59,982 bases of DNA from positions 1-59,982 of IMG/VR virus record IMGVR_UViG_3300048834_000230; one strand, written 5' to 3'. This document shows positions 5,648 to 51,885 of the stretch, piece after piece (within the stretch, counting starts at the first letter, position 1; each line of letters opens with the position of its first letter). Source of the DNA: a virus. Below the pieces are notes generated by a model. That model made no database searches, had not been told where the DNA came from, and worked only from the letters and a program-made list of their open reading frames with translations. The position numbers and the translations under genes were made by a program.

Positions 5648-6676
5648 ATGATAGAATTTGTTTTAGCCTGTATGATTAGTTCTTATCATATAGGTAATTC
5701 TCTTACTATGGATGGATTAGGTAATAATCCTACTAGTACGCTAGGAATTGAGCATATTGCCAATAAACATAACCAAGATTTAACGATTGGTTATCATGGG
5801 GATTCGTCACAATCACTTAATTCCATTTGGGATAACCCTAATGGGGTAGGTACAGATGGTATCAATTGGAAGCGTAGCCCTTATGATGACTATACGAATG
5901 CCCTAACAAATTACGCTTGGGATGTTGTTTTACTTCAACCATACCTAGGACAATTATCTACTTATGGTCAAGATAAGACGGCTATTGATAACTTCATTAA
6001 CTTGACCAATAATACTGATACAATAGTGTATATTTACCAAGTATGGCCGTGGCAATCTCAAGGGGAATATCGTGAATTTTGGAATAGTGAATCTGTCAAC
6101 AATGATCTAACTCCTACTCGTGCTAAAAGACAGTATTACACTAATCTTATGGAATATCTGCATGATACATATACACCAAATGGAATTGTAGTTAGACAAG
6201 TTCCTACTGGTGAAGTTTGGTATAAGATTGCAGAAGCTATCCATAATGGGGATATTACTGAAATATCTATGGTAAACATGTATGGAGACGATATTCATGC
6301 TTCTAGCAATATAGGTAGATATACAGCAGCAGCTACAGTTTATTCAACACTATTTAGAATACCTGTTACAGAACTACCGGAACTAGGATACTTCAATAAT
6401 ATGATTTCATTGAGTAGTCTTGTAGAAAAGATTAACAAGATTATTTGGGAAGTTGTATCTAATGATCGCTATTCAGGAGTAGGTGACTTTAACGATGATG
6501 GTTATGTAGATGCTGCTGATCTACTTGTATGGCAAGATACAGGAACATCTGGTAGAGATTTTTTACACTGGCAAAGAAATTTCCATCAAAATACCCCAAG
6601 TATCCTTGCAATTCCAGAACCTAGTACCCTATACTTAGTTAGTGTACTTTTACCCCTATTTATGAAAAGGAGCTAG
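5648..6676 (+). CDS. SGNH-hydrolase-like exoprotein with dockerin-like repeat and PEP-CTERM tail
   Basis: Residues 14-20 (HIGNSLT) match block I of SGNH/GDSL hydrolases, with Ser18 as putative nucleophile. GDDIHASS near residue 214 supplies a block V-like Asp-x-x-His pair. The family hydrolyses ester bonds in carbohydrates or lipids. Residues about 279-296 (GDFNDDGYVDAADLLVW) form one calcium-binding dockerin-like loop. IPEPST at about 321 begins a PEP-CTERM signal with a hydrophobic stretch and basic end (MKRS). This C-terminal layout is typical of Planctomycetota exported proteins. The N-terminus (MIEFVLACM) is short for a signal peptide. It could act on the host surface during entry or exit, or be an acquired host gene. 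Function not proven. Confidence 0.75.
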   Translation: MIEFVLACMISSYHIGNSLTMDGLGNNPTSTLGIEHIANKHNQDLTIGYHGDSSQSLNSIWDNPNGVGTDGINWKRSPYDDYTNALTNYAWDVVLLQPYLGQLSTYGQDKTAIDNFINLTNNTDTIVYIYQVWPWQSQGEYREFWNSESVNNDLTPTRAKRQYYTNLMEYLHDTYTPNGIVVRQVPTGEVWYKIAEAIHNGDITEISMVNMYGDDIHASSNIGRYTAAATVYSTLFRIPVTELPELGYFNNMISLSSLVEKINKIIWEVVSNDRYSGVGDFNDDGYVDAADLLVWQDTGTSGRDFLHWQRNFHQNTPSILAIPEPSTLYLVSVLLPLFMKRS

Positions 6677-7234: not shown

Positions 7235-8173
7235 ATGGCGAAGAAGAAAGCCGTAAAAAAATCTGCTAAGCCTGTTAGACCAACAAAGAAAAAAGCACCT
7301 AAGAAGAAAGGGGTATTTAATACCTATGCTAAAGAGGCAAAGGCTAAACCCGTATCTATCAAGAAAGCTGCTAAAAAAATTACCGATCAAGGAGATAAAG
7401 ATTTAGTAGGAAATAATATCTTTACTCTACTGGATATACCTAATCGAAAGAAACTACCAGCTAAAGGTACAGAACTGTCTAAGATTTATAATGTCATTGA
7501 AAAACGTCCTGATGATTACAAATACTTCATTGCCCAAATCAAAGATGGTGTAAGTCTTAATGTTGCTTGTGCTGCTAGTGGTATTTGTTCCCCCCAAGAA
7601 CTAATGACATATCTCCGTAGAGGGGCACAAGATATTAACCGTTATGAAGATAGAGTAGAAGATACTTACTATGCTCGATTATTCAATGATGTTAATAGAA
7701 CAGCCGCAATTAGCATTGGTGAAGTAGAAACAAGTATCAAAGAAGATGATCCTAAGTTCTTCTTACGGAATAGCCCCTTAGCTCGATTGTTTGGGGATGC
7801 TTGGCGTGATGATCCTGCTACAACTAAGAGCATTCAACATACCCATACTGGTAATGTATCTCTTGAAAGTGTTTTAGGTAGCCCATCAGAAGTTAAACAG
7901 ATTGACTCTGATCCTGATACACTTGCTCTTACAGAAGAAGAAAAGCATAATTCTTTAGAAGAATTAGCTGCTGCTGGTCTAATTACTTTGAATGAGGATT
8001 ACTACATAGCTAAACGTATTCAAGCTGGTGAATTACTATCAGATGAAGAAATGGAAGCTATGGAAGATGAAGTTTCTGATGGTTGTGACGGTGTGTTACA
8101 ACTCAATAGTGAAGGTATGCCACTTAGGCTACCTAGCCCCGTTGAAATCGAAGGAGAAATTATAGATGGGTAA
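7235..8173 (+). CDS. Candidate small terminase subunit
   Basis: The N-terminal 50 residues are Lys/Ala-rich. A helical region then resembles the HTH and oligomerisation parts of TerS proteins: DGVSLNVACAASGICSPQELM at about 108-128, followed by a segment with DPKFFLRNSPLARLFGDAWRDD. The C-terminal 80 residues are acidic. Small terminases recognise phage DNA and load the large subunit. The position before the large terminase (9743) supports the call, but two leftward genes intervene and sequence similarity is only structural in kind. It overlaps the next gene by eight bases. Confidence 0.5.
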   Translation: MAKKKAVKKSAKPVRPTKKKAPKKKGVFNTYAKEAKAKPVSIKKAAKKITDQGDKDLVGNNIFTLLDIPNRKKLPAKGTELSKIYNVIEKRPDDYKYFIAQIKDGVSLNVACAASGICSPQELMTYLRRGAQDINRYEDRVEDTYYARLFNDVNRTAAISIGEVETSIKEDDPKFFLRNSPLARLFGDAWRDDPATTKSIQHTHTGNVSLESVLGSPSEVKQIDSDPDTLALTEEEKHNSLEELAAAGLITLNEDYYIAKRIQAGELLSDEEMEAMEDEVSDGCDGVLQLNSEGMPLRLPSPVEIEGEIIDG

Positions 8174-8612
8174 AAGTAATGCTGATCTTGAGAAAGAAGT
8201 ATCTAGTCTTTCTGCAAAGTTGAAAGAACTAGAAGGTAAGTATAATCAAGAAGCAGATAAAGCTATCAAGGCTGAAACGGCTCTCTCTGAATTGCAAGCA
8301 AAGCACAACGATCTTCTTAGTGACTCTAGTAAGTCTGAAGTTGATATTAAGACTTTGAACGATCAGATTCGTGTCTTGGAAGATAAGATTAGCCGTATGA
8401 AAGAGGCTGGTGCTATGAGCCAGCCGGTAAGCCCTGGTGAACTAGCCATGCTTACCATTATGATGCTTGGACATACTAAGAACAGCTTGGGCATCTATAC
8501 AGGAAATGAGGCTGAATTTAACCTTCAGACTGTTAAGGCTATTCCTATGGCGGCTAGAGGGGTCCATGAACTCCTAAAAGTTCTTCAAGAAGGTGTTGAC
8601 TCCCAAGTATAG
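8166..8612 (+). CDS. Coiled-coil protein, 148 aa
   Basis: Residues 2-85 are a continuous heptad-like coiled coil (LEKEVSSLSAKLKELEGKYN). A helical C-terminal domain follows (PGELAMLTIMMLGHTKN). No family is recognised. Its position next to the TerS candidate and in front of a strong terminator suggests a packaging or scaffold accessory role, but this is only context. Confidence 0.65.
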   Translation: MGKSNADLEKEVSSLSAKLKELEGKYNQEADKAIKAETALSELQAKHNDLLSDSSKSEVDIKTLNDQIRVLEDKISRMKEAGAMSQPVSPGELAMLTIMMLGHTKNSLGIYTGNEAEFNLQTVKAIPMAARGVHELLKVLQEGVDSQV

Positions 8613-8670
8613 ATAATCTATTCTTGGAATTGATTTGGCAGTACGGCAAGAATTGGGCTGGTTTTGCAAA

Positions 8671-8709
8671 CCCCCTAGGAACTTAATTGATCCTAGGGGG
8701 TGTTTTTTT
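8671..8709. terminator. Strong intrinsic terminator
   Basis: Perfect 10-bp arms CCCCCTAGGA (8671-8680) and TCCTAGGGGG (8691-8700) are followed by TGTTTTTTT on the plus strand. It ends the 7235-8612 unit and lies at the tail of the leftward gene 8708-9031. On the minus strand only a TTTG follows, so it acts mainly rightward. Confidence 0.9.
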
Positions 8710-9031
8710 AGGTAGACCCAATGAAATAAACTGTTCTTGCAGCAGCTTCAGATGATCCAGAAACGATTCTTAGATTACAACAAGGGAAACACTCATCTGG
8801 AATCCGAGTAGCCTTACCATCGACTACAGGGATGGTGATAGTGTCTCCTGCATCGTCGTAAACATCTGCCCAATCTGCATTAGGATGAGCCTTAATCTGT
8901 GGTGTTACTACAGTTCCAGTAAATGCCGCTGGAAATTGTAGCATTCCAAAAACACTATCAGTAATTTCTAATCCATTACTGGTAGTTGTATCAATTGCAA
9001 TAGTCAATGTCTCTCTTCGGATAGCTCTCAT
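8708..9031 (-). CDS. Putative virion-associated beta protein, 107 aa
   Basis: The product is beta-rich (TLTIAIDTTTSNGLEITDSVFG) and resembles small phage decoration or head-fibre proteins in composition. No domain can be named. The RBS AGGAG lies in the end of the LamG gene upstream, three bases separate the genes, and both run against the surrounding late genes. Confidence 0.55.
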   Translation of the reverse strand: MRAIRRETLTIAIDTTTSNGLEITDSVFGMLQFPAAFTGTVVTPQIKAHPNADWADVYDDAGDTITIPVVDGKATRIPDECFPCCNLRIVSGSSEAAARTVYFIGST

Positions 9032-9742: not shown

Positions 9743-12190
9743 ATGAACACAAATTTCCTTCAATGGTCAAGATATATTCCTAAATTGACCGTAGATGGTA
9801 AGCCATATAGGCCCCATCCCAAGCAAAGAGCCTTTCTAATGATACCCCATAGAGAGGCTTTAATGTGTGGTGGTGCTGGTTCTGGGAAATCGGATGCTAT
9901 TCTAATGGCAGCTTGTCAGTATCTCCATAAACCTAATTATAATGCCCTAATTTTGAGAAGGGCTATCTCTGAATCTAAGCTTTCTAGTGCTATTTATGAT
10001 CGTGCTCAACAATGGTTTTGGCCTTTCATCCAAACAGGTGAAGTAAAATGGAATAAAGGAGAGCATAGCTTTCAATTCCCATCAGGAGCTAGATTAACCA
10101 TTTCATTTTTGAGAACCGAACTCGATCATATGCGGTATCAGTGTTTTCATCCTAATACAGAATTACTAACAATATCAGGCTGGAAGAATATCAAAGATAT
10201 TGTATTAGGAGAACTAGTAGCTTCTATGAATCCTGAAACACGGGTTATGGAGTATAAACCTGTAACCAAATTACATAAATACCACTATCAAGGGGATATG
10301 TACAGTAAAGATTCAAGAGAAGTAGGTTTTTGTGTGACTCCTAACCATGAGGTTTGGTTTAGTACACAACGTAGTAATAAGCTGAAAAAATCTCGGATTG
10401 ATGCTTTACCGGCTGTTGCAAAATTACCGCAAGTTTGTCTATGGACTGGTGTTGATCCTGTAGGAAAGGTATTTACTTCAGATGGTAATAATGGCAAGTC
10501 TATTGAATTTAATCCTAAAGTTTGGGCTGAATTTTTAGGCTGGTGGATTGCTGAAGGTAATTGTGATTTAGATAAATGGGCGGTAGTTGTAACCCAAGTA
10601 AAGAAAAGTGGTAGAAAAGAACTAAAGAAACTTTATGCCAAGATAAATACTAATAAGTACATTGATGCTAAACGATTCATATTCAACAATAAAAGTCTTG
10701 TACTGTGGTTACATGAGAATTGTGGTAAAGGAGCTAAAAATAAACATTTACCTCAAGAAGTGAAACAATGGTCTAGTGCTTATTTGGAAATTTTATTGAA
10801 AGCATTAGTAAAAGGGGATGGTACTTGGAAATCTTCTACTAATGGTGTTTTTGTAACTAGTTCAAAACAATTAGCTGAAGATGTTTCTGAAATAGCTGTT
10901 AAATGCGGTTATAGACCAACAACAAAACCCTACACCATGATTGGTTTTGGTAAAGAAACTCCTGGTTGGCGAGTGTCTTTAACGAAATTAGATCGTGATA
11001 CTCTGATTAAAAACTCTACAGTTAAGGAAACAAAGTCACAAACTCTACAGCAAATTCCTTATTCTGGTGATGTTCATTGTGTGACTGTACCCCCTCATCA
11101 TACAGTTCTAACTCGATATAACGGTAAAGTCGTATGGATGGGGCAGTCAACAGAATTTGACTTTATCGGCCTAGAAGAATTGACCACTTTTGAAGATTTC
11201 CAGTACACGTTTATGTTCCGGTCACTACGACAAGTAACTGGATCAGATATTCCCTTGCGTATGCGTTCTAGCACGAATCCGATTGGTCCTGGTGTTGATT
11301 GGGTTAGACGTAGATTTCGTATTACTTGGGATGATGAATTAGGAACTTGGGTAGGGAAGCATCCGTATCGTAAAATTCTACAGGCATTTTACAAAGATAA
11401 TCCCTCACTTGATCCTAGTTATATCTATTCTTTGAATGAAATGGACCCTGTTACACGTACTCAAATGCGTGATGGTGATTGGTCTACAAATCAATACAGC
11501 CGATTCAAACCTGAAAACTTTGATGATCGTTATGAAACTAGGGGACAGTATTTCAGTGCATTGAAATCAAGAAAAACTTGGCACAAAGATACAGTTGAGA
11601 TTTTCTTTACGGTTGATCCTGCTGGTACACAACGAAGTCTCCCTGGTGGTTTAAGCCTACATAAGAACAAAGGGCCAGCTTGGTCTGTGGTCTGTATCTG
11701 GGCTAAAACGTCAGATAATTACTTGCTGCTTTTGGACATGATTCGCAAACAATGCGAAATTCCAGAACTTTTGCAACGGCTGGTTTATGCTAGTCAAGTC
11801 TACAAACCCCTCAAAATTATCGCAGAAAGAAACGGTTTGGGACTTGGGGTAACTCAAGTCGGTGCGTCTTTAGGACTCCCTATTGACGAAATCTATACTT
11901 CTGTGGATAAAGTTAAGAACGCAACTAATGCTTTGTTCCGTGCATCCAAGGGTATGATACTCTTACCCGATGATGCTCCTTGGTTAGATGACTTTGAAAA
12001 TGAAGTCTTAACTTGGATGGGTGCCCCCAACGAAACAGATGACATTGTTGATAATGTTTCCAATGCTGCAAACTATGTCCAACAGTGTGTTGGTGGTGAC
12101 GAGAGACAATACTACGAAGATGTATATGACTCACCACTTGCAAGAGGGCATTGGAACAACGGACTTGCTCTACCAAATTACGAATACTAG
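9743..12190 (+). CDS. terL: Large terminase (TerL), interrupted by an intein
   Basis: TerL pumps DNA into the prohead and cuts it. Walker A is GGAGSGKS (residues 43-50). After intein removal, YQ joins STEFDFIGLEEL, the Walker B region, with Glu-Glu where Asp-Glu is usual. The nuclease part has FFTVDPAG, IIAERNG and DDIVDNV acidic clusters. The exteins total 480 aa, the normal TerL length. The intein occupies residues 134-468. The gene starts after the leftward lectin pair, with a purine-rich RBS overlapping a TTTCTGGGAAGA element. Confidence 0.95.
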   Translation: MNTNFLQWSRYIPKLTVDGKPYRPHPKQRAFLMIPHREALMCGGAGSGKSDAILMAACQYLHKPNYNALILRRAISESKLSSAIYDRAQQWFWPFIQTGEVKWNKGEHSFQFPSGARLTISFLRTELDHMRYQCFHPNTELLTISGWKNIKDIVLGELVASMNPETRVMEYKPVTKLHKYHYQGDMYSKDSREVGFCVTPNHEVWFSTQRSNKLKKSRIDALPAVAKLPQVCLWTGVDPVGKVFTSDGNNGKSIEFNPKVWAEFLGWWIAEGNCDLDKWAVVVTQVKKSGRKELKKLYAKINTNKYIDAKRFIFNNKSLVLWLHENCGKGAKNKHLPQEVKQWSSAYLEILLKALVKGDGTWKSSTNGVFVTSSKQLAEDVSEIAVKCGYRPTTKPYTMIGFGKETPGWRVSLTKLDRDTLIKNSTVKETKSQTLQQIPYSGDVHCVTVPPHHTVLTRYNGKVVWMGQSTEFDFIGLEELTTFEDFQYTFMFRSLRQVTGSDIPLRMRSSTNPIGPGVDWVRRRFRITWDDELGTWVGKHPYRKILQAFYKDNPSLDPSYIYSLNEMDPVTRTQMRDGDWSTNQYSRFKPENFDDRYETRGQYFSALKSRKTWHKDTVEIFFTVDPAGTQRSLPGGLSLHKNKGPAWSVVCIWAKTSDNYLLLLDMIRKQCEIPELLQRLVYASQVYKPLKIIAERNGLGLGVTQVGASLGLPIDEIYTSVDKVKNATNALFRASKGMILLPDDAPWLDDFENEVLTWMGAPNETDDIVDNVSNAANYVQQCVGGDERQYYEDVYDSPLARGHWNNGLALPNYEY
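10142..11146 (+). other. Intein with LAGLIDADG endonuclease inside TerL
   Basis: The intein starts at Cys134 (CFHPNTELLTISGW, block A). Block B-like CVTPNHEVWF comes next. The LAGLIDADG motifs follow in FLGWWIAEGNC and LLKALVKGDGTW. The C-terminal blocks are VHCVTVPPHHTVLTRYNGK (block F) and VVWMGQ followed by Ser (+1). The last intein residue is Gln and the penultimate is Gly, rather than the usual His-Asn, so the C-terminal cleavage chemistry is atypical. It sits right before Walker B, a conserved site that homing elements favour. Confidence 0.93.
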
Positions 12191-41601: not shown

Positions 41602-42231
41602 ATGGAAAAAAACAAAGTCATTGGTATAGGTGGTTTTCTCCTAGCCTTGATTATGATTCTCCAAAATCTAGGTATTGTTGTTATCAACCCTGATAACCCT
41701 GATACTCCAGTTACACCTAGTAACCCTGATATCGTTGTCCCTGATGAACCTAAACCGGATGACCCTACTCCGGTAATACCTGATAACCCAAATCCACCAA
41801 TTGATCCTAACAAGGATATTCTACTTACTATCGAAGCAGAAAATTTCCCTGTTGTACCCCCTAGCTATGAAGCTATCTCTAAACCTGTTTATGATGTTCT
41901 TGTAGCTTGTGAAAATGCCCCTGGTTCATTGATCCTTGCTCGTAGTCATGCCCAATGGTCTAGGTTATTTCTTCTTCCAGAAGCAAGCATGATGAGAACT
42001 ACTGGTTCTTATAGAGAACAGCGTATTAAAAGCCTGCAAGCTATGCTTAGTATTCACAATATGGATTCGATCTGTCCTGGTCTAAGCATAGCTGTTGATG
42101 GTGTTATCAATCAGGCTCTAGGCGGAAAGCAAGATAGAGCATTAACATCAGATGATTTTTTGGCTCTATCTAAGGCTCACGATGCTATTGCTGGTCGTGC
42201 CTTTGAAGCTTTCCAAAGGATTGTTCAATGA
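41602..42231 (+). CDS. Membrane protein with Pro/Asp-rich stalk, 209 aa
   Basis: The sequence starts with one transmembrane helix (IGIGGFLLALIMILQNLGIV). Then comes a stalk of about 45 residues with repeated P-D/N-x-P units (NPDNPDTPVTPSNPD). A helical globular domain of 120 residues follows. The stalk suggests the domain is held away from the inner membrane through the cell wall, as in some spanin-like or tail-receptor proteins. It overlaps the next gene by ATGA. Confidence 0.65.
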   Translation: MEKNKVIGIGGFLLALIMILQNLGIVVINPDNPDTPVTPSNPDIVVPDEPKPDDPTPVIPDNPNPPIDPNKDILLTIEAENFPVVPPSYEAISKPVYDVLVACENAPGSLILARSHAQWSRLFLLPEASMMRTTGSYREQRIKSLQAMLSIHNMDSICPGLSIAVDGVINQALGGKQDRALTSDDFLALSKAHDAIAGRAFEAFQRIVQ

Positions 42232-42909: not shown

Positions 42910-45033
42910 ATGTCATGGAGAGCAAAGAAACTACACCTACTCAAAGGTGCTAGATTATTTCCGACTGATGCGGTTAATCTTAAACCTGATAAGATTGTCC
43001 AAATGTATAAGGACAGTTTTACAGGAGTACGGATTGATCCTGAAGCAAAAGAAGAACTCATGTCGCTACAGGCTGTGCCTGATGGTGATATGGTAGCTAT
43101 GTCTACAGGGATGGCAGATACAGGTAAGGGTAAATTATCCATACCTTTTATCTATGCTCATCAAGCTTATCCTAAACTCTGGCCTAGTCTCCCTCAAGAA
43201 ACTGGAAATTGTTTTATTGCCGGTACAATGGTACTTGCAGATAACATTAAACCTATTGAACAAATAGAATTAGGCGATAAGGTTTGGACAGGAGAAGGTA
43301 AACTTACCGAAGTTATTAGTAAGAGAAAAATTCTTACTCATAAACCTTTAATTAAAATTTGTCCTGTAGGTAGCCTGCCAATTATATGTACTGACGATCA
43401 TAAAATACTTGTTTATAGACTTGGAATGATAGGCAAAAAGCGTATCAGCAAATCTATGTATAACAGGGTATTAAACGGTACATACAAAGAAAAATCCCCA
43501 ACAACTGTAGTAGAACAGTTTGAAAGCCGGAAGCCTATATGGATTAAAGCTAAAGACTTAAAAGAAGGTGATTGTCTCTTAACACCTATTAAATTTAAGA
43601 ATATGAAAGTACCAAAGGATTGCCCTGGTAATCTCTCTCAATCAGAAGAAGGGTTATTCTTATTAGGATGCTTTTCAGGTAATGGTTATGCTGGTGGTTC
43701 TACAATGGAGATAGTTAGTCCTAATGATGGACTAATCCAAAAATTAGTAGAAATTCTTCAGTTACATGGATTTAATCCAAAACTATGCCCATCTAAGGGA
43801 TGTACCAAAATAAGAGTACATTCTGTTGACCTTGTAACGTGGCTTAGAAAGCATTTTTATAATAAGGATAAAAACAAAGCATATCCCGGCTGGTTAATTG
43901 GTAGCAAAGCTTACTTGCATGGTTTATTTGAAACTGATGGACATTACTCCGAAAAAAGAAAAACCAATACTATAGATTCTACCTCACTAGCTTTGATATA
44001 CGGTACTTATGCTACTTTAGTTAGCCTAGGTTATACACCTTGTATCAATATGGTAAGTAGAAGTAAAGGAACTTACGCTAATGCAAAACCGTTATACAGG
44101 TTAATATGGATAGAAGACAAAAAAAATAATCAAGTATGGATGGATAATAAATTTGTCTGTAGACCTATTCGTAAATTTGAATTAGTAGAAGGACCTAATG
44201 AAGTTTATGACATTGGTGTAAAAGATGAACACCATTCATTTATTGCTAATGGTCATGCTGTTTCAAACTGCGTAGGTAAAGCTGGTAAGAATAGTGGTAT
44301 CTTACTACTAGGTGTAGAAGCTGCCCTAGCTCAACCTGATGAAGAAACAGGTATCACAGAAGGTTTCCCTGAAGTCCCCTTAGAACTACAACCGCATGGT
44401 ATCCTAGCTTGGGAACATCTATACGGTGAACGTGGTCATAGGGGTCAAGGTGCTAACTGTTCTAAGCTTATCTTAGTATCATCCAAATCTAGTGGTATGA
44501 TCCTAAGAAAGAACTACCCTGAAGCTGGTATTGATTTTACAAAAGAAAATACCCGCCTCTCTGTCAATTGGGGTGCTAGAGGTACACCTGATAAGATTCT
44601 TGCCCTAGGCAAATCAAATCCTATCAGGAATGCGGTAGACGTACCTAATCACGAAGTAGCTAGAGACTTCATCAACAACGGATACCCTATTTGGGTGTGT
44701 AGTTCTCTAGGCTTTTCTGAAATCTGTGATGCTAATGGATATTCAGAACGTCAAGGTGGTTGGGGTCACTCTTGGATAGTTGCCGGTTTTGATGATCGCC
44801 CTGAAACAGTTAAAGCCTATGGTTTCCCATTGTTCCTATTCATCCATGATTGGGGTTTGTGGAATAAAAATACCAAGGGTATTACTATTAAGGGTACAAA
44901 CATCAAGATACCCCCTGGTTCTTTCTGGGCAGATGCTCGTTTACTCGATCAGTGCGATATGACAGCACTATCAGGTTTAACTGGTTGGATGCGTAAAGAA
45001 CTTCCCGATTTCAGTGGTGGTCTACTAGGATAA
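42910..45033 (+). CDS. C1-like cysteine peptidase, interrupted by an intein at the catalytic Cys
   Basis: Residues 1-100 plus 454-707 make a 354-aa peptidase after splicing. The joined active-site segment reads QETGN-CVGKAGKNSG, the oxyanion Gln and nucleophile Cys of the papain fold as found in the phage 'QEIGDCVS'-type family. The later GGWGHSWIVAGFDD gives the catalytic His, and FLFIHDWGLWN stands where NSWG usually lies. GYPIWVCSSLGFS is another conserved segment. It has no signal peptide. It is a likely lysis or virion-processing protease. Before splicing the nucleophile is the first residue after the intein, so the precursor should be inactive. Confidence 0.85.
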   Translation: MSWRAKKLHLLKGARLFPTDAVNLKPDKIVQMYKDSFTGVRIDPEAKEELMSLQAVPDGDMVAMSTGMADTGKGKLSIPFIYAHQAYPKLWPSLPQETGNCFIAGTMVLADNIKPIEQIELGDKVWTGEGKLTEVISKRKILTHKPLIKICPVGSLPIICTDDHKILVYRLGMIGKKRISKSMYNRVLNGTYKEKSPTTVVEQFESRKPIWIKAKDLKEGDCLLTPIKFKNMKVPKDCPGNLSQSEEGLFLLGCFSGNGYAGGSTMEIVSPNDGLIQKLVEILQLHGFNPKLCPSKGCTKIRVHSVDLVTWLRKHFYNKDKNKAYPGWLIGSKAYLHGLFETDGHYSEKRKTNTIDSTSLALIYGTYATLVSLGYTPCINMVSRSKGTYANAKPLYRLIWIEDKKNNQVWMDNKFVCRPIRKFELVEGPNEVYDIGVKDEHHSFIANGHAVSNCVGKAGKNSGILLLGVEAALAQPDEETGITEGFPEVPLELQPHGILAWEHLYGERGHRGQGANCSKLILVSSKSSGMILRKNYPEAGIDFTKENTRLSVNWGARGTPDKILALGKSNPIRNAVDVPNHEVARDFINNGYPIWVCSSLGFSEICDANGYSERQGGWGHSWIVAGFDDRPETVKAYGFPLFLFIHDWGLWNKNTKGITIKGTNIKIPPGSFWADARLLDQCDMTALSGLTGWMRKELPDFSGGLLG
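43210..44268 (+). other. Intein with LAGLIDADG endonuclease inside the peptidase
   Basis: Block A is CFIAGTMVLADNIKPIEQIE with Cys101 of the precursor as residue 1. Block B-like PIICTDDHKILVY follows. The endonuclease motifs are LFLLGCFSGNGYAGG and YLHGLFETDGHYSE. Block F is VYDIGVKDEHHSFIANGHA and the end is VSN-C. Asn is the last residue, Ser (not His) is penultimate, and the +1 residue is the catalytic Cys of the host peptidase. Length 353 aa. Confidence 0.93.
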
Positions 45034-45037
45034 AATA

Positions 45038-45358
45038 ATGCCCAAGAAAGTATGTATATTCGTAACTGGTGCTATTAATTCAGGTAAGACTACTTGGATT
45101 AATGACTCTGGTTTGGACAATCTCTGTAACCGTACCTATGCTGGTATTACTTTTGCTTGTCAAGAATTCTTTAACAAAGCAAAAGCAATTAGAGATACTT
45201 CAGATTACATTGCGGCCTATGAAATCCAATGTAATGAAGATGCTATCCGCAAAGCCTCTAGTGTACGTCGAGACTTAGAAGAAGAAGGATGGTTGATTCT
45301 TACTAAACATATTGTAAATCAAGATCAGCAAGAAACTCTATCGGAGCTAATCGCATGA
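45038..45358 (+). CDS. Small P-loop NTPase/kinase-like protein, 106 aa
   Basis: Residues 6-18 (CIFVTGAINSGKT) form a Walker A loop, followed by TWIND, and a late strand GWLILTKHIV. It is much shorter than typical nucleoside kinases (over 160 aa), so it may be a minimal or truncated kinase. No frameshift remnant is obvious. It starts four bases after the peptidase stop and overlaps the next gene by ATGA. Confidence 0.6.
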   Translation: MPKKVCIFVTGAINSGKTTWINDSGLDNLCNRTYAGITFACQEFFNKAKAIRDTSDYIAAYEIQCNEDAIRKASSVRRDLEEEGWLILTKHIVNQDQQETLSELIA

Positions 45359-46590
45359 AGCCTTTAACAATACTTCTATTATTTCTTACCCTGGGAAACT
45401 TTTCTCTGGGAAAAGAAATGCCCCTGCCTGCCCCTACAGATTATACCCCAATTATTACATGGTATGCTGCCCTGTATTCAATCAAAAATGAACCTACACC
45501 TGCCCCATCGAATGATGAAATCAAAGTCGGTGATAAGTGTATTCATTGTAAGGGAACAGGTACGCTTACCTTAGATGGGGGTAATCGAAATGCCCCTTGC
45601 CATCATTGTAAAGCTGATGGTGTAGCCAATGAGGGTGATCCTATCATCACAGGGAACTACACTCAAGAACCTGAAGTTCCACAAGCTGTCCCCTTTATTG
45701 AAAAGCCTTTAGTTCCACCTGTTGTTTTCCCTCCAGAAAAACCTGTATTAGATTTACCTGATCGTGTTTGGTGTTTCATCTATCAGGGGTCTACTTACTA
45801 CTATGATCCTGAAACAGATATCTTTGTCAGTAAGCAAGGAAAGAAATTCAAGATAGATATTCCACAAACAGAATGGATGAAAGAAGGTTTTGTAAAAATC
45901 TGTACTCACGATGCTACTGGTAGGCAGATTAAATGCGAACCATGTAAACTCTTTCAAGTCGATATCAATGCTGACTTAATTCCAAAATCAAAACCTATAA
46001 CAAGGCTCAATACTCATACCAATTCGGAAGTCCAAACAGCCGATCAGTATGCTACTCCCCAAGCCTCTATTGATCGAATGTTGTCTGTACTTAATCCACA
46101 ACCGCATGAAACATTCCTAGATGTAGGTAGCGGTGATGGTCGTGCTGTCATTACTGCTGCAAAGAACTATGGATGCTATGCAATTGGAATTGAAATTGAT
46201 CCTGATAGAATTCAATTAGCTTACGCTAATGCTGAAGAAGCTGGTGTTGCTAATCAAGTTGAATTTATTCAAGGTGATTTCAAACAGATAGAATGGCCCC
46301 AAGCCGACGTTGGCTTTGTCTATCTCTTCCCAGAAGACTTGTACGATATCCGTAATCGTCTTCTAGGTTTAGATCGGTTTGCCTCTTACGTGCATCAAGT
46401 TCCAAATCTACCAATGTACTCCAAAGACAATGGTGACTTTTACCTATGGGATTACAATGATGTTTTTACTGTTTGGAATGGTCGAACCTATCAAGGTCCC
46501 CCTTGTAGTAAACCCGGATGTACGATGTGTAATTCTATTCGTGCCTCAATAGCTGAACAAAAATCCCATCACTTAGGAGTATTGCCATGA
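45355..46590 (+). CDS. Exported protein with DnaJ-like zinc motif and SAM methyltransferase domain
   Basis: Residues 1-19 form a signal peptide (MKPLTILLLFLTLGNFSLG). Residues about 61-88 hold CIHCKGTGTL and CHHCKADG, like one half of a DnaJ CxxCxGxG zinc module. A proline-rich linker follows. Residues about 225-390 form a class I methyltransferase with FLDVGSGDGRAVI (motif I), GIEIDPDRIQLA (acidic motif II) and QGDFKQIEW. The C-terminal CSKPGCTMC adds cysteines. SAM is cytoplasmic, so a secreted methyltransferase is unusual. The signal may be a membrane anchor. Target unknown. Confidence 0.75.
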   Translation: MKPLTILLLFLTLGNFSLGKEMPLPAPTDYTPIITWYAALYSIKNEPTPAPSNDEIKVGDKCIHCKGTGTLTLDGGNRNAPCHHCKADGVANEGDPIITGNYTQEPEVPQAVPFIEKPLVPPVVFPPEKPVLDLPDRVWCFIYQGSTYYYDPETDIFVSKQGKKFKIDIPQTEWMKEGFVKICTHDATGRQIKCEPCKLFQVDINADLIPKSKPITRLNTHTNSEVQTADQYATPQASIDRMLSVLNPQPHETFLDVGSGDGRAVITAAKNYGCYAIGIEIDPDRIQLAYANAEEAGVANQVEFIQGDFKQIEWPQADVGFVYLFPEDLYDIRNRLLGLDRFASYVHQVPNLPMYSKDNGDFYLWDYNDVFTVWNGRTYQGPPCSKPGCTMCNSIRASIAEQKSHHLGVLP

Positions 46591-49740: not shown

Positions 49741-50422
49741 ATGAGGGCAAGTCATCAACATTGATAACTCTTGCTGCTGGCTTAGATACTGTTGGTACTT
49801 CTGGCATACCCTTCCTAGGCTTTACCTCTAGTTTCACTTTTGCTGGTCCATCATACATATCAGCTAACTCTTGCAAACTTAGTTTGATATCAGCTGTTAT
49901 TGTTGGGTACATAACATCTCCTACTGTAGGTAATTTTGGAATCAAAGGTCTTCTAATTACAAACATCTTATCATAGGGTAAATCACCTGCAAAACTAGAT
50001 ATGTTCATAATACCCTCATGGACCCATAAATAATACTCTTCACTCTCTGTATTAGTGTAGGCAACAATACGTTCTAATCTGTAACTTTCTATTTGAAAGT
50101 AATCCCTCTTATATGGTTTCTTACCATATGGCAAACTATAGTCTGTTACTGATCTAGCCCTATCTACCCTTAATACTTTTTTCTCCCAAATCATAGCATC
50201 AACAACTATCTCTTCCCCACTTCGACTACCCCCAAACAGAATAGTTTTGTATGCTGTCTTCGCTCGTTTTACATACGGACAAATCTCTACATAGTATTCA
50301 TCCCCGATCATACGTGCATCTGCAAGCTGATCCTGATAATCCCTAACATCCATACCACAAAGCCTACAGGTACGATCTAAACGAAACTTATGCCCATGAG
50401 TTGCCATGTTACTCCCGCTCAT
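49739..50422 (-). CDS. Hypothetical partner of the HerA-like ATPase, 227 aa
   Basis: The N-terminus has HKFRLDRTCRLCGMDVRDYQ and CPYVKRAKTAYKT, a short zinc-type Cys set. The middle is beta-rich (YFQIESYRLERIVAYTNTES) and the C-terminal 60 residues are extended and basic. It is translationally coupled to the ATPase (ATGA at 50419-50422), so the two products probably act together. It does not show the acidic motifs of NurA nucleases, the usual HerA partner. Confidence 0.65.
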   Translation of the reverse strand: MSGSNMATHGHKFRLDRTCRLCGMDVRDYQDQLADARMIGDEYYVEICPYVKRAKTAYKTILFGGSRSGEEIVVDAMIWEKKVLRVDRARSVTDYSLPYGKKPYKRDYFQIESYRLERIVAYTNTESEEYYLWVHEGIMNISSFAGDLPYDKMFVIRRPLIPKLPTVGDVMYPTITADIKLSLQELADMYDGPAKVKLEVKPRKGMPEVPTVSKPAARVINVDDLPS

Positions 50423-51885
50423 GCTACTACTCCCTTAACTACCTGTGCCATGTCAACCAACTGCCACTTCAAGTTATCAACCATTCTCTGTTGAACTAGT
50501 TCATTCTTATTAGGACAGAAATGGTGCCTTGGATACCACTCATCAAATACGCTTGCATGTTCCTCTACTCCCAAACTAAAAGCTAATTCCGTTAAACGGT
50601 TATCAAGTCTACGCCACCCTGTTACCCGCTGAATCTCTTTCTGATCCATAGGCCCCTTTAAGTAGCACAATGTTTGCCTACTCTTGAACCTTATAGTTTC
50701 TTCCCCAGAAAAAGTATCGGAATACAAGAATTCTCTTTTCTTCAAAGTAGAGATAATTTCACGATCTGCTAGGTTAATAGCCTGTGAAACTTTCTTTCTA
50801 TCTAAATCAGTTTTGAGTAGCCCTGTGATCCATGTTCCTACATTGCTCAATGCCTTGTAGTCGATATCACCTGGATTCTGCGTACTCAAGACAATGCCGA
50901 GTCCAAACGCTCTAGCCTGTTTGATAAGCGTAAGTAGCAATTGCTTTGTCACTGGATTACTGATTGCCGGTATCAATCCTTGGCATTCATCAATGTAAAG
51001 CAATGCTTTCAATTCGTGGCTAGCTGGTTGTGTCTTAACCCAAGTTAGAATCTTACTGAAGAGAATCCCTAGAAAGAACTGTTGTTCCTCTGGTAATAGC
51101 TGTACTGTGTTGAGAATTGAACAGCAGGGAACTCCCCCACCATTCCGAAACAACTTACCTACATCTAGCGTAGGTTTAGATTGCCACTTCTTGAATGCAA
51201 AACTATTGCTCAATGTTTCCAATCTCTTCTGTAGTAGTTTCGTATCATGCTTGTATAGGTCATCACCTACTTCCAAGTAGCTACTGATAAGTTCCGGGGT
51301 AGCTGACTTATTACCTTCCCAACATGCCCAAATTGCCCGTTCTAACAAAACCTTATGGTCCCCTGTAGGCCCTGATTTTAGCCCTAGAATCGACAGCAAG
51401 GAACTCGCCAAAGCGGAAGCCTCATTTAGTCTCTCTAGCCCTGAATTGGGCAGGTTTTCCCCACCAAACAAGCCGAGAACCATACCCGTATCCCCTACCC
51501 CTGGAGTGTAGAGCCTGATATCGGTAGTCCCTAGAATCCTCTCCCCCAAATGATGGGGCAATCCCCATTCCCTGTGACAGTCTTTAGTTGCCTGTGCTAG
51601 AGCCTCATGGATAGCGGGAATATCCATAGCATTAGACCCATCAAACGCTTTGAATTCCTCACTACCAAACTCTGTAGGCATATAGAGTAAATTACCTATA
51701 TCACCTTTAGGGTCGATAGCGATAATAGGTATTCCATTGAGTAGACAAGACTCTAAGATAGAAATACCTAACCCTGTCTTACCGCTCCCGGTACTCCCTA
51801 CAATCACACAATGCCTAGTCAAGTTATCTAGTGCAAAATTAGGATTGCCTTGTTCACCCTTACCAATGTAAGCATGTCTTGTCAT
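50419..51885 (-). CDS. HerA/DUF853-like DNA-translocase-type ATPase
   Basis: Walker A is VGSTGSGKTG (about residues 29-38), then GIPIIAIDPKGDIGNLL. Walker B is ALLYIDECQGLIP, followed by KQARAFGLGIVLSTQNPGDI and GTWITGLLKTDLDRKKV. This is the conserved core of the bacterial HerA-like DUF853/'ATP-binding protein' family. It lacks an N-terminal HAS barrel and at 488 aa is shorter than usual bacterial members. HerA/FtsK-type ATPases form hexamers that move DNA. Its role in a phage that already has TerL is unknown. Neighbours are coupled on both sides by ATGA overlaps. Confidence 0.85.
   Translation of the reverse strand: MTRHAYIGKGEQGNPNFALDNLTRHCVIVGSTGSGKTGLGISILESCLLNGIPIIAIDPKGDIGNLLYMPTEFGSEEFKAFDGSNAMDIPAIHEALAQATKDCHREWGLPHHLGERILGTTDIRLYTPGVGDTGMVLGLFGGENLPNSGLERLNEASALASSLLSILGLKSGPTGDHKVLLERAIWACWEGNKSATPELISSYLEVGDDLYKHDTKLLQKRLETLSNSFAFKKWQSKPTLDVGKLFRNGGGVPCCSILNTVQLLPEEQQFFLGILFSKILTWVKTQPASHELKALLYIDECQGLIPAISNPVTKQLLLTLIKQARAFGLGIVLSTQNPGDIDYKALSNVGTWITGLLKTDLDRKKVSQAINLADREIISTLKKREFLYSDTFSGEETIRFKSRQTLCYLKGPMDQKEIQRVTGWRRLDNRLTELAFSLGVEEHASVFDEWYPRHHFCPNKNELVQQRMVDNLKWQLVDMAQVVKGVVA

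Follow-up and report, generated by a model that had tools for sequence, protein, structure and literature searches.

Inteins before the catalytic cysteine position of a viral papain-like family, with one in a divergent homologue from an IMG/VR virus record

The window, the whole of a 59,982-base IMG/VR virus record, encodes a divergent papain-like homologue that is interrupted by a class 1 intein directly before C454, the residue in the column of the peptidase nucleophile (Table 1). A single Cys would thus act as the splicing nucleophile and afterwards as the nucleophile of the host enzyme. At least 16 distinct viral peptidase genes besides that of the window carry an intein before the same Cys. 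We consider selfish homing into a conserved site the probable explanation, with splicing as an obligatory maturation step and most likely no evolved control function.

Results

The window intein

A 707-aa reading frame yielding a 354-aa spliced product, reported in an earlier sequence-only reading, was reproduced exactly on recomputation; the intein accounts for 353 aa. The intein blocks described there are real. Pfam LAGLIDADG_3 (PF14528) matched residues 334-389 above the cut-off (8.9e-8) and Intein_splicing matched below it (1.6e-4), while tblastn against GenBank phages returned 14 records in which every match lay in the intein only (best 5e-21), most matches to phage inteins beginning at C101. 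In the intein alignment, C101 is the invariant intein position 1, and the block B His (intein H64) is likewise invariant; at the other end, N453 is followed by C454, with the terminal Asn and the Cys both kept. The best PDB folds for the predicted precursor model (pLDDT 79, pTM 0.64, active-site distances not being readable from it) were homing-endonuclease inteins (7qsu, E 1.4e-16), and the folds of I-DmoI and PI-SceI were matched as well.

The penultimate intein residue is Ser instead of His, and the first LAGLIDADG motif reads GNG instead of GDG, the second reading TDG. Judged from the sequence, the penultimate Ser and the changed motif may entail different splicing or lost homing. A penultimate His is usual but not defining: phage inteins with Gly, Lys or Ser at this position, and complete splicing of a natural phage intein with a penultimate Gly, are described in a phage intein survey (PMC5050341). 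The penultimate Ser was accordingly dropped as proof of slow splicing, the Gly intein showing the opposite.

Table 1. Features of the interrupted peptidase gene and its neighbours in the window
Feature	Position	Strand	Basis
Papain-like peptidase ORF with intein, 707 aa	42910..45033	+	ORF list, family HMM
N-extein, residues 1-100, last residues QETGN	42910..43209	+	family HMM
Gln96 codon, oxyanion-hole Gln column	43195-43197	+	family HMM
Class 1 intein, residues 101-453, CFIAGTMV...ANGHAVSN	43210..44268	+	Pfam, tblastn, alignment, fold match
LAGLIDADG homing endonuclease region, limits approximate	43645..44076	+	Pfam, alignment, fold match
C454 codon, splicing +1 residue and peptidase catalytic Cys column	44269..44271	+	HMM, alignment
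C-extein, residues 454-707	44269..45033	+	family HMM
His620 codon (GHSW), catalytic His column	44767..44769	+	HMM, alignment
His646 codon (HDWG), column of relatives' catalytic Asn (NSWG)	44845..44847	+	alignment
Downstream gene: hydrophobic N-terminus, Cys-rich CIHCKGTGTLTLDG motif, methyltransferase domain	45355..46590	+	
Upstream gene: membrane helix, Pro-rich linker, likely helical domain	41602..42231	+	no Pfam match

The host protein belongs to a viral papain-like family

No relative was returned by a tblastn search of GenBank phages with the extein, by comparison of the spliced protein with PHROGs, or by scans of IMG/VR and GTDB genomes with the whole or spliced protein (polymerase and primase scans likewise), and the spliced protein gave sub-threshold matches only in Pfam. 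Conserved stretches are too scarce in the peptidase family for alignment-based scans, and it was reached only via a hand-made degenerate DNA pattern for QxxGDCVxxGA. This pattern yielded 120 IMG/VR stretches, nearly all of them true uninterrupted members with a later NSWG. Across about 117 uninterrupted viral homologues, Q..GDC, H and NSWG are invariant, as are the Gln, Cys, His and Asn-Ser-Trp-Gly columns in alignments of 14 and 42 members. Against a family HMM built from 90 uninterrupted viral homologues, the spliced window protein scored 99.6 bits and the C-extein alone 90 bits, with C454 aligned to the invariant Cys of Q..GDCV and with Q96 and H620 also on invariant columns. Two uninterrupted members lie on Mucilaginibacter contigs (L258 and L259, about 8001-8880); L258 has glycosyltransferase-like genes among its neighbours and no clear prophage around it.

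Nearly all PDB matches of the family profile were C1 peptidases (cathepsins and plant papains), with the His and NSWG aligned, and Pfam Peptidase_C1 matched 9 of the 42 members. In the AlphaFold model of an uninterrupted homologue (L034; mean pLDDT 90.8), C70 begins a helix spanning residues 70-89, a long helix from the Cys as in papain, and the closest folds were xylellain (3ois, Z 22.5) and cathepsins, with numerous C1 zymogens matching at Z 17-20. On this model we assign the family a papain fold, and the window protein is joined to it by the HMM. Taken together, the HMM column, the invariant motifs and the papain fold assign the intein's +1 Cys to the nucleophile column of the peptidase. 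The sequence-only reading had put the intein exactly at the catalytic Cys of a C1-type peptidase and had named, as the result that would speak against this, an active-site Cys elsewhere in homologues; the nucleophile column coincides with C454, and the placement stands.

The motifs cited in that reading fared unevenly. H620 of GHSW lies on the His column and the Cys of QxxGNC on the Cys column, where relatives read Q..GDC. HDWG, in contrast, is a departure: every other row reaching this column has NSWG or NSW, and the window has His in place of the catalytic Asn. Since the catalytic Asn is lacking, we call the window protein a divergent papain-like homologue, on its sequence, and not a proven C1 peptidase. 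The Asn at position -1 (GN for GD) was considered as an adaptation to the intein and rejected, since other intein-bearing genes keep Asp.

Inteins recur at the same cysteine in at least two lineages

Interrupted members came from scans with patterns describing either junction, N-terminal or C-terminal. The set comprises L128, L129, L130, L139, L140 (= L142), L141, L144, L160, L171, L179, L180, L186, L221, L233, L240 and L257, among which L160 (50 bits) and L240 (35 bits, with Peptidase_C1 above the cut-off) are papain-like proteins at a greater distance. The scans themselves encode the junction, so these numbers show recurrence and not preference, and a share or significance of the site cannot be estimated from them; most family members have no intein, in a sample that is biased. 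Intein lengths run from 130 to about 401 aa, with both full-length and mini forms present, the endonuclease being absent from those of L129, L130, L140, L141, L144 and L179. L186 (1-2387) carries a second, unrelated intein right after NSWG (NSWG/C...N/SNW, slashes marking junctions), so that both catalytic motifs are interrupted within one gene.

Five changes of the intein label are needed on the extein tree, at least three of which are forced by well supported branches, and the interrupted L141 is sister to the uninterrupted L260. The intein tree separates type A (the window, L128, L139 and L144; 99/99) from type B. On the extein tree, by contrast, the window groups with L140 and L179, which both carry type B inteins, and L144 groups with L129, L130, L180 and L186. 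This conflict between the trees indicates at least two intein lineages at one site across differing exteins. In the pair L221/L233, intein dS is 0.08 against 0.82 for the flanking C-extein, the intein DNA is about 97% identical against about 83% for the adjoining extein, and identity over 75 bases drops from 0.99 to 0.83 at the splice junction; the dS gap and the identity step point to recent spread of the intein between genes that had already diverged. In L140 and L179, the mini-inteins share 69% identity against 41-50% for their exteins, with an omega of about 0.13 and a dS near saturation.

Gene neighbourhood and other features of the window

Genes downstream of the relatives' peptidases are often secreted and thioredoxin-like or Cys-rich, forming a cluster that covers 30 loci, including 8 intein-bearing ones, and Pfam confirmed thioredoxin downstream of L140, L144, L180 and L186. 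One relative (L096, 11605-13185, minus strand) is a natural fusion of a papain-like peptidase and a thioredoxin domain, and Tat-like signals open four intein-bearing relatives (L129, L130, L144 and L180). A CxxCxGxG..DG motif occurs downstream in 16 of 115 loci and upstream in none of 124; it is present in the downstream gene of the window, whose CIHCKGTGTLTLDG motif resembles that in genes downstream of related peptidases. The upstream gene resembles its counterparts in layout only. These neighbours and the fusion suggest that the peptidase is an envelope enzyme with a partner that keeps its Cys reduced; lysis would be one possible role. The putatively secreted product of the downstream gene combines a DnaJ-like Cys-rich motif and a methyltransferase domain in one protein.

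A second intein of the window (10142-11146, within the ORF 9743-12190) interrupts the terminase large subunit (RYQ/CFHPNTELL...VVWMGQ/STEFDFIG). It ends in Gln, not Asn, and is related to the second intein of L186 (100/100 in the intein tree). Elsewhere, a DUF4886 protein is encoded at 5648-6676; its dockerin-like stretch (DFNDDGYVDAADLLVW) and its PEP-CTERM-like end hint at a planctomycete or similar host. An ATPase gene with weak matches to large-terminase and FtsK-like PHROGs (50419-51885, minus strand) lies on the strand opposite to the replication genes.

Discussion

In class 1 splicing, the +1 Cys accepts the N-extein, followed by Asn cyclisation and an acyl shift. We propose that a mobile, LAGLIDADG-descended class 1 intein homed into the active-site codons Q..G[DN]C, the most conserved stretch of the peptidase. 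Before splicing, C454 would be joined to the intein, and in the branched intermediate it would be S-acylated; Gln96 of the oxyanion hole would lie 353 residues away from it. With C454 engaged and Gln96 at this distance, the unspliced precursor should be inactive, as judged from intein chemistry. We infer that the window protein splices, which would link QETGN to CVGKAG and form the active site. Conservation of the site and its Cys at +1 would explain the recurrence, and mini-inteins would persist since nothing short of exact deletion restores the enzyme, imprecise loss killing it.

Is the intein retained for regulation, with delayed or redox-dependent splicing keeping the protease inactive up to its folding, its export or late infection? 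The sequence-only reading had likewise suggested a built-in activation step or timer, for which we found no positive support. Insertion at the nucleophile would guarantee coupling if splicing were slow, and endonuclease-less mini-inteins are retained in several genes, which could mean a useful function; the low omega of one pair is expected, however, simply from the need for working splicing. Regulation by inteins has been proposed in the phage survey (PMC5050341). The Tat-like signals and the thioredoxin neighbours or fusion of some relatives would also fit such a role, but the window protein has no Tat-like signal motif, and thioredoxin genes stand beside uninterrupted peptidases as well, hence serve the peptidase rather than the intein; control of the intein by them was rejected for this reason. 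The inteins at this site moreover behave as homing elements, and many homologues lack one. We therefore regard a regulatory zymogen as quite unlikely. A more elaborate form, in which several intein lineages are retained as zymogen locks of an exported viral protease, and splicing together with its redox state frees the enzyme not earlier than its halves are folded and ahead of Tat-like export, with a partner thioredoxin keeping the new Cys reduced outside, appears improbable to us.

Decay of the host, with the intein as a passenger in an inactive peptidase homologue, would account for the His in the catalytic Asn column, the long tree branch (1.78), the changed first LAGLIDADG motif and the penultimate Ser. 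The 707-aa frame is nevertheless unbroken in either extein, the protein retains Gln, Cys and His together with every splicing nucleophile, and the third catalytic residue varies among papain-like enzymes (PMC10318531), which leaves this reading unlikely. Weak Pfam matches to PT-HINT and Hint_2 would fit a non-splicing, cleaving-only Hint domain of the bacterial intein-like or pretoxin type; the LAGLIDADG domain and the terminal Asn-Cys are present, however, and the joined exteins make up a single papain domain that matches uninterrupted relatives, so that this possibility is extremely improbable.

Selfish homing, by comparison, suffices as an explanation, since insertion into active centres is a known theme of phage inteins: a review (PMC7765530) and the phage survey (PMC5050341) describe inteins in active sites and beside invariant residues, with putative methyltransferases among the hosts. 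Coupling of splicing to activity requires no selection for control. The system bears on whether active-site inteins are purely selfish or whether some have been turned into switches, and its two or more lineages at one codon, together with full-length, mini and intein-free relatives, provide a natural comparison set. A viral papain-like family that is so far undescribed and has a thioredoxin partner emerges from the analysis as well.

Comparison with known systems

The viral family shares its fold and the Gln-Cys-His-Asn layout with peptidase family C1 (papain, cathepsins, xylellain 3ois), at an identity of about 12-20%, the window protein lacking the Asn. The spacing from Gln to Cys is one residue longer in papain than in the viral family. 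Among GenBank phages, the inteins closest to the window type comprise one in the DNA polymerase of Staphylococcus phage 6ec and five in C5-cytosine methyltransferases, each time before the catalytic Cys (P1 Dmt, Lana, EBPR siphovirus 2, Propionibacterium phage B22 and Mannheimia phage 587AP2). The methyltransferase inteins are the nearest relatives of the window type in these phages (26-28% identity) and join type A in the intein tree with moderate support (80/84). Their +1 Cys is the catalytic Cys of the PC motif IV, as in P1 Dmt (TP/C..N/CQAFS), but the host enzyme is unrelated and they end in VVHN, whereas the window intein ends in AVSN. These inteins are unmarked in the GenBank records examined (L123 1201-2223 from P1, OP279344.1, and L122, L124, L125 and L126), which are labelled only methylase, Dmt or hypothetical. 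Scanning also returned several inteins of ribonucleotide reductase, a different host enzyme, at NPC/VEI, where the +1 Cys lies within the NxCxE motif of the thiyl-radical Cys. In mycobacteriophage inteins, the penultimate His is often replaced, also by Ser, and homing endonucleases and transfer are described; no papain-like peptidase is among the host proteins named in the sections of that survey considered here (PMC5050341). In the literature searched, we found neither a papain-like protease as an intein host nor such recurrence. The principle of an intein in an active centre is thus already known, and what is new here is the papain-like protease as host and the recurrence of inteins at its Cys.
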